Below are positions 37,239 through 53,382 of a stretch of 53,382 nucleotides of DNA, in pieces. Position 1 is the stretch's first letter. Each line of letters starts with the position of its first letter. The stretch is taken from contig JAJZTK010000009.1 in assembly GCA_021849045.1 (NCBI GenBank), positions 1 to 53,382 of the forward strand. The letters run 5' to 3'. The translations under genes and the position numbers were made by a program. Under the pieces are notes generated by a model. The model worked only from the letters and a program-made list of their open reading frames with translations, ran no database searches and had not been told where the DNA came from. This stretch comes from Deltaproteobacteria bacterium. GTDB taxonomy: Bacteria; Desulfobacterota; Desulfuromonadia; Geobacterales; DSM-12255.

Positions 37239-38378
37239 ATGAATTTCGAACTGAGCCAGGACCACAGGGTATTGCAGGACAGCGTCAGGGATTTTGTCAA
37301 CAAGGAGATCAAGCCGCTTGCCATGAAGATCGACGAGGACCATATGATCCCGGACGCCCTGGTAAGGAAGATGGGGGAGATGGGGTTCCTCGGCAGCTAT
37401 CTTCCCGAAGAGTACGGCGGGGCCGGCATGGATATGCTCTCCTACGCCATCGTCGTTGAAGAGGTCTCCAAGGCCTGCGGCTCCAGCGGCGTCCTGATCT
37501 CGGCCCACACCTCTCTTGCCTGCGGTCCGATCTACACCTTCGGCACCGAAGAACAGAAGAAGAAGTGGCTGCCGGCCCTGAACCGCGGCGACATCATCGG
37601 CTCCTTCCTCCTCACCGAGCCGGACGCGGGAAGCGATGCCGGCGCCATCGCCACCACCTACAAGCGGGATGGCGACGAATTCGTCGTCAACGGCTCCAAG
37701 ATCTTCATCACCAACGGCGGCTACCGGGGAACCGGCGTCCTGTTCGCCACCTCCGACAAAAGCCTCAAGCACAAGGGAGTGTCTGCCTTCATCATCGACC
37801 TCCGCTCCCACGGCGTCGAGATCCTGAAGAACGAGAACAAAATGGGGATCAGGGGGAGCTACACCACCGCCTTTGCCCTGGACAATGTCCGGATTCCGGC
37901 GGAGAACCTCCTCGGCCAAGAGGGACAGGGGTTCAAGATTGCCATGGACACCCTGAACGGCGGCCGGATCGGCATCGCCTCCCAGGCGCTGGGGATCGCC
38001 GAAGGGGCCTTCGAGCGGGCACTGGCTTACTCCAAGGAGCGTAAGCAGTTCGGCGCCCCGATCTGCGACCTGCAGGCGATCCAGTTCAAGCTGGCCGACA
38101 TGTATGCCCGGATCGAGACCAGCAAGCTAATGACCTACAAGGCGGCCTGCCTGAAAGACAGCAAGAAGAACTACACCATGGAATCGGCCATGTGCAAGAT
38201 GCTCGCCTCGGAGGCGGCTACCTACGTCACCCATCAGGCGATCCAGATCCACGGCGGCTATGGATTCATCTGCGATTACGAGGTGGAACGGATGTACCGC
38301 GACGCCAAGATCACCGAGATCTACGAAGGGACCAACGAAGTGCAGCGGGTTGTCATCTCCAAGCTGCTGCTGTCGTAG
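37239..38378 (+). CDS. Acyl-CoA dehydrogenase
   Basis: MNFELSQDHRVLQDSVRDFVNKEIKPLA, LLTEPDAGSDAGAI, IHGGYGFICDYEVERMYRDAKITEIYEGTNEVQR. Confidence 0.94.
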   Translation: MNFELSQDHRVLQDSVRDFVNKEIKPLAMKIDEDHMIPDALVRKMGEMGFLGSYLPEEYGGAGMDMLSYAIVVEEVSKACGSSGVLISAHTSLACGPIYTFGTEEQKKKWLPALNRGDIIGSFLLTEPDAGSDAGAIATTYKRDGDEFVVNGSKIFITNGGYRGTGVLFATSDKSLKHKGVSAFIIDLRSHGVEILKNENKMGIRGSYTTAFALDNVRIPAENLLGQEGQGFKIAMDTLNGGRIGIASQALGIAEGAFERALAYSKERKQFGAPICDLQAIQFKLADMYARIETSKLMTYKAACLKDSKKNYTMESAMCKMLASEAATYVTHQAIQIHGGYGFICDYEVERMYRDAKITEIYEGTNEVQRVVISKLLLS

Positions 38379-51044: not shown

Positions 51045-51344
51045 TTATGCTTGAGCCTCATGCATCGGTTGTATGGTAATGGTCAGCCCCATGCCATGAA
51101 GCACATTAAAAAGACTGGTGAGTTCCGGGTTGCCGCGTTTGGAAAGCATCTGGTAAAGACTCGCGCGCTTTACGTGTGATCTTTCGGCAATTGCCGTCAT
51201 GCCGCCGTTAGCCTGCGCCACTTCCCGCAAGGCTAGAAGCATCGCTGATTTGTTCCCCTCTTCCAAAACGGCATTCAGATATGCAGCGGCATTTTCAGGG
51301 GATTTCAGCCATTCGATTCGTAGTCGGTCATACGTTTCATTTTC
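51045..51344 (-). pseudogene. HigA-like addiction-module antidote with N-terminal frameshift
   Basis: Intact part EWLKSPENAAAYLNAVLEEGNKSAMLLALREVAQANGGMTAIAERSHVKRASLYQMLSKRGNPELTSLFNVLHGMGLTITIQP; upstream start MKRMTDYES is in another frame. Confidence 0.65.
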
Positions 51345-51552
51345 GTTGCTCCTGATGGTTTTTTCAAAACCGTTGGGCGCTTTCTATATCGCGCTGTTGA
51401 GTCCGTTACATTCTGGTTCATGTGACACCTCCCTGGCGAGTCAGTATACCATATCACCCGCAGGCAAAGAGCCGCCCATCCCCGGGGATGACAGCAGGCT
51501 TGATTTCTGCTCTACCATGGGCTATTATGCAGCCGTCTCAAAATTGTTCCTA

Positions 51553-51637
51553 AGTATACGATAATACTAAACCATCCGCGAGGATGGGGCGGAAAGCCTA
51601 CAGGGTCTCAACGAGACAGCCGGGTTGCCGAAATACT
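51553..51637 (+). ncRNA. GEMM-I cyclic-dinucleotide riboswitch aptamer, cGAMP-type (GEMM-Ib) candidate
   Basis: agtatacgataataCTAAACCATCCGCGAGGATGGGGCGGAAAGCCTACAGGGTCTCAACGAGACAGCCGGGTTGCCGaaatact; GNRA-capped P2, P3 GTCTC/GAGAC, P1 agtat/atact; A at the position equivalent to Vc2 G20. Confidence 0.88.
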
Positions 51638-51661
51638 CCAGATTTCGGCCCCGGCTTTTTT
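51619..51661 (+). terminator. Intrinsic terminator overlapping the riboswitch 3' side
   Basis: GCCGGGttgCCGAAAT-actccag-ATTTCGGcCCCGGC-TTTTTT; mutually exclusive with P1 and the 3' aptamer strand. Confidence 0.88.
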
Positions 51662-51763
51662 GTTGCCGCTGGCTGGGGGTAAAAGAGGAGGTGATTCCAC
51701 GCAAAGCGGCACGCATTTCAGGGCCTGATTGCCCGACATTCAATTGTTACAGGAGGAAGAACA

Positions 51764-52387
51764 ATGAAAAAGATAACCGTAGCTGCATGCTTTGTCCTTA
51801 TCGCTTCCATGGCATCCACTGCCCTCGCAGACAGCATCCAGAACAGGTTCGGCGTCACCGGCCGCATCGGATTCCTGATCCCCGGGGACAGCGAATTCAT
51901 CGACTACCCGCACTATCGGAGGTCTGATACCGACACGGGAATAATCGGAGGCGGCGGATTCATCTATGGCATCGACAGGAACTGGACAGCGGAGCTGGAT
52001 ATCACCCGAACGGAGTTCCGTGCCCATGACGGTTACGGATTCGAAGAAGCCGATTTCGCTACCACCAACATCTCCCTGGGAGCCCAATACCGCTTCATCA
52101 ACCTGCCCGTGAAGAAGCTCGTACCCTATGCCGGTGCCGGTCTCGACATCCTCCTCAACGACTTCTCGCCGGTTGACGGTTCCGGCGGGAGCGCGGACAG
52201 CGTCGTAGGGGTACACGTGTCGGGCGGAGTCGACTACTTCGTGCTCAAGCAATTGGCCGTAACCGGCCAGTTGAAGGGAGTATTTGCGCCCGATGCGGAC
52301 ATCAGGGATTACCGCGGCGTCAAGGTCGGCAACTTCGCCCCCTCCAGCCTCTCCGTGACGTTCGGCGTCCGCTATTTCTTCGATTAA
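51764..52387 (+). CDS. Outer membrane beta-barrel protein
   Basis: Signal peptide MKKITVAACFVLIASMASTALAD; aromatic/Gly alternating strands; terminal SSLSVTFGVRYFFD; SD aggaggaagaacaATG. Confidence 0.88.
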   Translation: MKKITVAACFVLIASMASTALADSIQNRFGVTGRIGFLIPGDSEFIDYPHYRRSDTDTGIIGGGGFIYGIDRNWTAELDITRTEFRAHDGYGFEEADFATTNISLGAQYRFINLPVKKLVPYAGAGLDILLNDFSPVDGSGGSADSVVGVHVSGGVDYFVLKQLAVTGQLKGVFAPDADIRDYRGVKVGNFAPSSLSVTFGVRYFFD

Positions 52388-52411
52388 CGAGCCATTTTGC
52401 CCCACAGATCG

Positions 52412-52441
52412 AAAAAAGCCCCGGGTTCCGGGGCTTTTTTC
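52412..52441 (+). terminator. Intrinsic terminator after the beta-barrel gene
   Basis: aaaaaaGCCCCGGgttCCGGGGCttttttc. Confidence 0.93.
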
Positions 52442-52498
52442 GTCACGGGAAGAGGCCGGCACTGCGGGTTAACGTGCCTGTTCCCCTTTATCTTTTCA

Positions 52499-52870
52499 CT
52501 ACAAAGTCTGCGTAACGGAATCAATGGACACAGCCAAGGTGGCGCGCAACCAATCGAATTTTGACTTCAGAAGATCAAAGTCTGGTCCGGAAGTTATAAA
52601 CGTTGCTTTGCCCTTGATCAGGAAACCGGTGCCTGTTCCATGCAAGCCTTGCACTTTGCTGCTCCCCAGGGTAATCAACACCTCAGGGTTAAAGGCGATA
52701 TTCGCCTCGGTACGATGCATATATCCGGCCGGAATCAGCAAACGGCCGTCGGGGGAGATACGCAGGTAACTATTCCAGGTATTGACCATATGCGGCCCAT
52801 CCTGGCCCAACGTAGCAATGGCAACCACGCCATCCTGTTTCATTATTTCCAGCAGTTTTTCGGGAATCAT
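52499..52870 (-). CDS. Pyridoxamine 5'-phosphate oxidase-family protein
   Basis: MIPEKLLEIMKQDGVVAIATLGQDGPHMVNTWNSYLRISPDGRLLIPAG. Confidence 0.82.
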   Translation of the reverse strand: MIPEKLLEIMKQDGVVAIATLGQDGPHMVNTWNSYLRISPDGRLLIPAGYMHRTEANIAFNPEVLITLGSSKVQGLHGTGTGFLIKGKATFITSGPDFDLLKSKFDWLRATLAVSIDSVTQTL

Positions 52871-52959
52871 TGTTACTACCTCCTGTGGTTTGATGGTCAT
52901 GCAGCCTTACACTATGAATTGGAAGCGCGTGATGGCGGCGGAGCCGACAACAGGCCTTT

Positions 52960-53181
52960 TCAGGCAGCGCTGCCGTTCAGATAGGCATTGATCTCCGTCT
53001 CTACCGCCGCCTCCTGCTCCGGCGAGAGGCCGTGGATGCTGACCACGTCCTTGAGCAGACAGATCCCCACCTTGCAGGTGACGCAGCCGATGTCGTAACG
53101 GCCGAGAATCTCTCCCACCGTCGGGTGCTGCGCAATCACATCCTGTATGGCCATCTCCCCTAATCCGTTTTGAAAGGTCAT
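52960..53181 (-). CDS. DUF1858-like small protein with CxxC
   Basis: AIQDVIAQHPTVGEILGRYDIGCVTCKVGICLLKDVVSIHGLSPEQEAAVETEINAYL. Confidence 0.75.
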   Translation of the reverse strand: MTFQNGLGEMAIQDVIAQHPTVGEILGRYDIGCVTCKVGICLLKDVVSIHGLSPEQEAAVETEINAYLNGSAA

Positions 53182-53382
53182 GTGCGCTCTCCTGTTGTTC
53201 ATTGTTAGGGATACGCTACACTCTTCCTACGGACAAACAGATGACCAAGGTCAAAAACAGCCGTTTTCCCGGCCAGGCCGGCGATCTGCCGGAACGCACG
53301 TCAGCCCGGATGCTCTACAGTTTTTCCCGGATCTGCCGAAGTAAATGCATACCCTTTTCACCAGAACAAAAGAGCGCGCTAT

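Follow-up and report, generated by a model that had tools for sequence, protein, structure and literature searches.

Which signal governs the small outer-membrane barrel gene described here, behind a leader that has the appearance of a cyclic-dinucleotide riboswitch, and does that signal turn the gene on or off? The cGAMP regulon of Geobacter governs respiration on metal particles and has been mapped chiefly in G. sulfurreducens. The window (the whole stretch of DNA analyzed, 53,382 nucleotides) is one contig, C258, of a 4.33-Mb draft genome (G000) that comprises 271 contigs and carries 15 GEMM-I aptamers. The reading that we favor, with a probability of roughly 0.86, is that cGAMP turns on the barrel gene through a GEMM-Ib ON switch, within a regulon of surface proteins and cytochromes; we infer the ligand, the direction of switching and the link with electron transfer from the evidence that follows.

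The leader and its gene

The original prediction had placed a GEMM-I core at 51553-51637 and suggested a covariance-model search as a check. This search (Rfam cmscan) returned RF01051 at 51556-51632 on the forward strand, with 48.2 bits against a gathering score of 35 (E 2e-6) and a match to model positions 1-87, which is the full length; within the 53-kb window, no other Rfam match exceeds its gathering score. The outer pairs of P1 extend the element to exactly the predicted coordinates, and P1, a GNRA-capped P2 and P3 are all present (table 1), with one possible extra P1 pair between U51557 and A51633. The leader folds with a z of -4.6 versus shuffles. Weak matches to a miRNA, to CsrC and to a Brucella sRNA had scores under the cut-off and were dismissed as chance.

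Comparative evidence came from 30 distinct aptamers of A-type, namely those with A at the position equivalent to G20 of Vc2. In these sequences 97.6% of the helix cells are paired, and two-sided changes are found in seven helix pairs distributed over P1, P2 and P3, versus 2.2 in shuffles, a signal that is lost when the partner strand is slid. The P1 pair 51554-51636, which is G-C here and in some others, is A-U in most sequences.

The target was expected to be a small outer-membrane barrel, and so it is: the 207-residue product matches PF13505 (OMP_b-brl) with 43.8 bits against a gathering cut-off of 28.7 (E 4e-11), the only family matched in the Pfam scan. The AlphaFold2 model, built with 50 homologues, has a mean pLDDT of 87.6, and its nearest solved folds in Foldseek are OmpW (2f1t and 8qxp) and OprG (2x27), with TM values of 0.69/0.77 against OmpW 2f1t. 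A PDB profile search, independent of the fold search, returned OmpW 8qxp with an E of 1e-6. OmpW and OprG are consequently the best structural neighbors and the best profile matches of the barrel, but at about 20% identity; the NCBIfam search of the protein gave no name, and the single-sequence PDB search no match.

Since a strong hairpin and a convergent gene follow the barrel gene, the riboswitch appears to control a single-gene unit, with the barrel alone downstream. The convergent gene (window 52499-52900, reverse strand) encodes a PNPOx-like flavin protein, and a short protein resembling DUF1858 or hybrid-cluster-associated proteins is encoded at 52960-53202. Upstream, and divergent from the riboswitch gene, lies a gene for a HI1420-type antitoxin-like protein (51045-51266, reverse strand). 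The promoter candidate is the sole match of the consensus scan in 51420-52480, where shuffles expect 0.6, and a TTG-TTTC..GCTAT-ATGC block in its region is kept in three related loci.

Table 1. Features of the riboswitch and barrel locus, in window coordinates
Feature	Coordinates	Strand	Evidence
Sigma-70-like promoter candidate, TTGATT, 17-nt spacer, TATTAT	51500..51528	+	consensus scan, 9/12 matches
GEMM-I aptamer (GEMM-Ib, predicted cGAMP-type) including full P1	51553..51637	+	RF01051, helices, covariation over 30 distinct A-type aptamers
P1 outer pairs, A51553-U51637 to A51556-U51634	51553-51556/51634-51637	+	
P1 inner pairs	C51559-G51630, G51560-C51629	+	
J1/2 pocket, GATAATAC	51560..51567	+	Rfam alignment and pocket residues in PMC6274999
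P2 stem 51572-51577/51582-51587 with GCGA (GNRA) loop	51572..51587	+	compensatory changes, 3/6 pairs
P3 apical stem GUCUC/GAGAC, 51605-51609/51613-51617	51605..51617	+	two-sided changes, 2/5 pairs
Intrinsic terminator, AGCCGGG..GCCGAAAT/ATTTCGGCCCCGGC + TTTTTT	51618..51661	+	hairpin -23.5 kcal/mol; T6 at 51656-51661
Ribosome-binding site AGGAGG, 7 nt ahead of the start codon	51751..51756	+	sequence
OmpW/OprG-like outer-membrane beta-barrel, 207 aa, apparent signal peptide	51764..52387	+	PF13505, AlphaFold2, Foldseek, profile search
Hairpin AAAAAAGCCCCGG-GTT-CCGGGGCTTTTTT, probable two-way terminator versus the convergent flavin-protein gene	52412..52440	.	sequence

Ligand and direction of the switch

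Aptamers of this family follow a rule for position 20 of Vc2, where G marks aptamers for c-di-GMP and A those for c-AMP-GMP (PMC9481103). An A had been predicted at the equivalent position of the present aptamer, and both the Rfam alignment and the family alignment place A51566 there, corresponding to A14 in the structure of the 3',3'-cGAMP riboswitch. The other pocket equivalents are G51560 for G8, A51561 for A9, A51563 and A51564 for A11 and A12, C51567 for C15, G51592-A51594 for G40-A42 and C51628 for C75; all the pocket nucleotides are identical to those published for this structure (PMC6274999), and the G8-A41 distance, 33, is also the same. Given A51566 and a pocket identical to that of the cGAMP structure, the sequence predicts cGAMP as the ligand, in a class where a dual response is known. 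Compared with Vc2, a c-di-GMP-I riboswitch, the fold and the family model (RF01051) are in common, whereas A replaces G at position 20, and C and U replace G and C at the J1/2 positions 21 and 22. The C that appeared at position 20 in some aptamers was an artefact of a pattern matched too far upstream; the sequence AATACTAAAC has A.

This evidence needs to be weighed against the alternative of a switch that responds to c-di-GMP, or to both dinucleotides to a similar degree, and reports the total level of cyclic dinucleotides. RF01051 carries c-di-GMP in its very name, the omcST switch of G. sulfurreducens responds to cGAMP and c-di-GMP alike (PMC6456294) and, as a partial precedent, a Desulfobacca aptamer of A-type retains affinity for c-di-GMP (PMC9481103). 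However, the present aptamer has A51566 instead of G in a pocket arranged as in the cGAMP structure, separate G-type aptamers exist in the same genome, and the pgcA switch, a member of this class, prefers cGAMP by a factor of about 1200 (PMC6456294). A c-di-GMP or dual sensor is consequently unlikely, even if it deserves more attention than the other alternatives considered below.

As to the direction of switching, the terminator, which as RNA reads AGCCGGG..GCCGAAAU/AUUUCGGCCCCGGC-U6, starts 15 nt inside the Rfam match and uses the aptamer 3' strand (the base of P3, J1/3 and the 3' strand of P1) as its 5' arm. The original prediction had located this hairpin at 51619-51661 and considered it mutually exclusive with P1. 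The hairpin, at 51618-51661, is indeed strong and its overlap real; because the aptamer 3' strand doubles as the terminator 5' arm, the two folds are incompatible. A simple terminator scan that requires T's after the stem misses both terminators of the locus, one of which is bulged while the other pulls T's into its stem. The full leader folds in the terminator form, at -46.6 kcal/mol, versus -24.2 kcal/mol with the aptamer helices imposed, so that in the full-length RNA the terminator state is favored over the aptamer fold by about 22 kcal/mol; hence, switching must be kinetic, during RNA synthesis.

The best reading of the overlap is a ligand-ON transcription switch, and the predicted ON logic agrees with the published behavior of the class, since deletion of gacA in G. 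sulfurreducens lowers all the genes lying behind GEMM-Ib switches (PMC6456294). The opposite possibilities, that the ligand favors termination or else acts on translation by masking the ribosome-binding site, draw upon reported cyclic-dinucleotide riboswitches whose aptamers closely resemble each other and yet function as either ON or OFF switches (PMC9262584). They are quite improbable here: the aptamer 3' strand is itself the terminator 5' arm in an exclusive fold, no competing antiterminator is seen in the leader, and the ribosome-binding site at 51751 is 114 nt away from P1.

In the ON mechanism that we favor, transcription would begin from the promoter near 51500-51528 and the leader would fold co-transcriptionally into the GEMM-Ib aptamer. 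The ligand, 3',3'-cGAMP, would then fill the junction of P1, P2 and P3, touching A51566, A51593 and C51628, and lock P1 and P3; segment 51618-51637 would be barred from the terminator and RNA polymerase would continue into the barrel gene. In the absence of ligand, 51618-51637 would pair with the stretch preceding the T-run and transcription would stop. In this way cGAMP would switch on a single small OmpW/OprG-like barrel from a transcript with no other gene, and this barrel would belong to a regulon of surface proteins and cytochromes.

Recurrence and history of the pairing

In evolutionary terms, the locus raises a further question: How frequently does the same switch precede the same kind of gene? 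Barrel relatives are present in 89 of the 141 genomes of the order, and for about 113 distinct barrel genes the DNA upstream was scanned with a covariance model derived from the aptamer set. The search for the pairing in other genomes, which had been suggested together with the original prediction, found a same-strand upstream aptamer at 21 of these barrel genes, in 20 genomes and three families, against a chance expectation of about 0.5, a rough estimate derived from some 15 aptamers per approximately 4,000 genes, the gene number itself being taken from genome size. All 22 barrel-associated aptamers are of A-type, and every one of them has a terminator starting within its 3' strand. The barrel gene of one genome (G058) has a tandem aptamer pair before it, and that of another (G074) is separated from its aptamer by about 730 nt. 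Geobacter argillaceus (G007) belongs to the same genus as the window genome (match at G007:C27:17892-18512, with the coordinates of NZ_VLLN01000027.1 in L018), and its aptamer differs by 1 nt only, with diverged DNA on both flanks.

That about 92 of the 113 checked barrel genes of the order are without the switch, including the paralogue in the window genome itself (L017, 45%), could suggest a decayed or bystander aptamer placed before the barrel by accident, an idea scarcely tenable in the face of a conserved aptamer and terminator with compensatory changes, the same arrangement at 21 barrel genes where about 0.5 would be expected, and the single nucleotide of difference retained between diverged flanks in G. 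argillaceus. Also without the switch are the checked barrels of genus g11, which is presumably Geobacter proper, the genus of G. sulfurreducens.

A tree of 59 barrel proteins requires at least eight changes of switch label, five of which are forced by well-supported branches, versus 17.5 in shuffles; the switch-bearing rows were added on purpose and the others are a sample, so that the tally of gains and losses gives an indication only. With eight changes instead of 17.5, the switch is inherited within clades, yet gained or lost repeatedly. The window barrel clusters with those of G. argillaceus and of two other genomes (G019 and G064), all of which bear the switch.

The regulon in the host genome and its meaning

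In the genome containing the window, 11 of the 15 aptamers are of A-type and the remaining four of G-type (L001, L002, L003 and L014). The A-type aptamers precede, among others, the genes for a lipoprotein cytochrome with nine CxxCH motifs (C246), for a cytochrome-domain protein with two CxxCH motifs, behind a tandem pair (C209), for an acyltransferase or autoinducer-synthase-like protein (C233) and for Ig/FN3 surface proteins (C32). These targets make up the sort of list reported for G. sulfurreducens (PMC6456294).

Some leaders before the Ig/FN3 surface proteins are mixed tandems (G000:C32:33985-34280 and 37661-37950; L198), with the A-type aptamer first and the G-type second, each with its own terminator-like hairpin; a mixed tandem in G004 (C26:1328-1741; L206) has A, A and G, in the same order. 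Such tandems predict a gate requiring cGAMP AND c-di-GMP, a combination that PMC9481103 does not list among its tabulated tandem logic gates. Also on contig C32 (28762-30323; L198) are two adjacent secreted proteins with weak polysaccharide-lyase matches, one behind a G-type aptamer and the other behind an A-type aptamer.

Regarding the enzymes that could produce the ligand, a HAMP-GGDDF protein on contig C106 is a Hypr candidate with Ser at the selectivity position (NDRYGYVKASEV), the same GGDDF/Ser pattern as described for GSU1937 (PMC8835794). Enzymes of GacA type, which have Ser and match the G. metallireducens structure 6d9m at 64-71%, are found in full in 10 of the 12 other genomes of the family, including that of G. 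argillaceus, and in part in G006. No GacA orthologue was found in the 271-contig draft of the window genome, and a DNA search there for the GacA neighborhood of G. argillaceus found nothing either, which may reflect an assembly gap as well as a loss; this counts against the favored reading. A membrane GGDEF protein of the same draft (G000:C191:56847-57317; L067) has Thr (GHLAGT) at the position held by Asp in canonical enzymes and by Ser in Hypr enzymes.

The locus shares with the GEMM-Ib riboswitches of Geobacter, for instance that of pgcA (Gs1761), the aptamer architecture, the A at the G20 position and the pocket residues, as well as the overlapping terminator, the structure-based ON logic and a clade that encodes Hypr GGDEF enzymes; whereas the published targets are cytochrome, pilus and transpeptidase genes (PMC6456294), the target here is a small OmpW-like barrel. 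In the open literature compared, this barrel is not named as a GEMM-Ib target. The riboswitch class, the ligand rule and the ON logic are already known; what is new is a recurrent, probably under-recognized barrel target. The electron-conduit porins and OmpJ of Geobacter are outer-membrane proteins that the literature ties to metal reduction (PMC6148476, PMC1186022). Porin-cytochrome clusters have cytochrome neighbors, whereas the barrel is a 207-residue protein from a single gene without an adjacent cytochrome gene. Its link to extracellular electron transfer may be surmised, by analogy, from the cytochromes that lie under the same type of switch in the same genome and from the published regulon.

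More tentatively, and somewhat short of an even chance, we propose that an OmpW-like barrel recurs in the cGAMP regulon throughout Geobacterales, the switch having been gained or lost several times before different paralogues. If so, contact-dependent metal respiration would seem to have an outer-membrane step of its own, unrecognized in the model species because the checked barrels of their presumed genus, g11, do not carry the switch. A single-gene barrel that this switch precedes in many genera would be a candidate for a missing outer-membrane component, and its switch may offer a clean one-gene reporter of cGAMP for non-model species.
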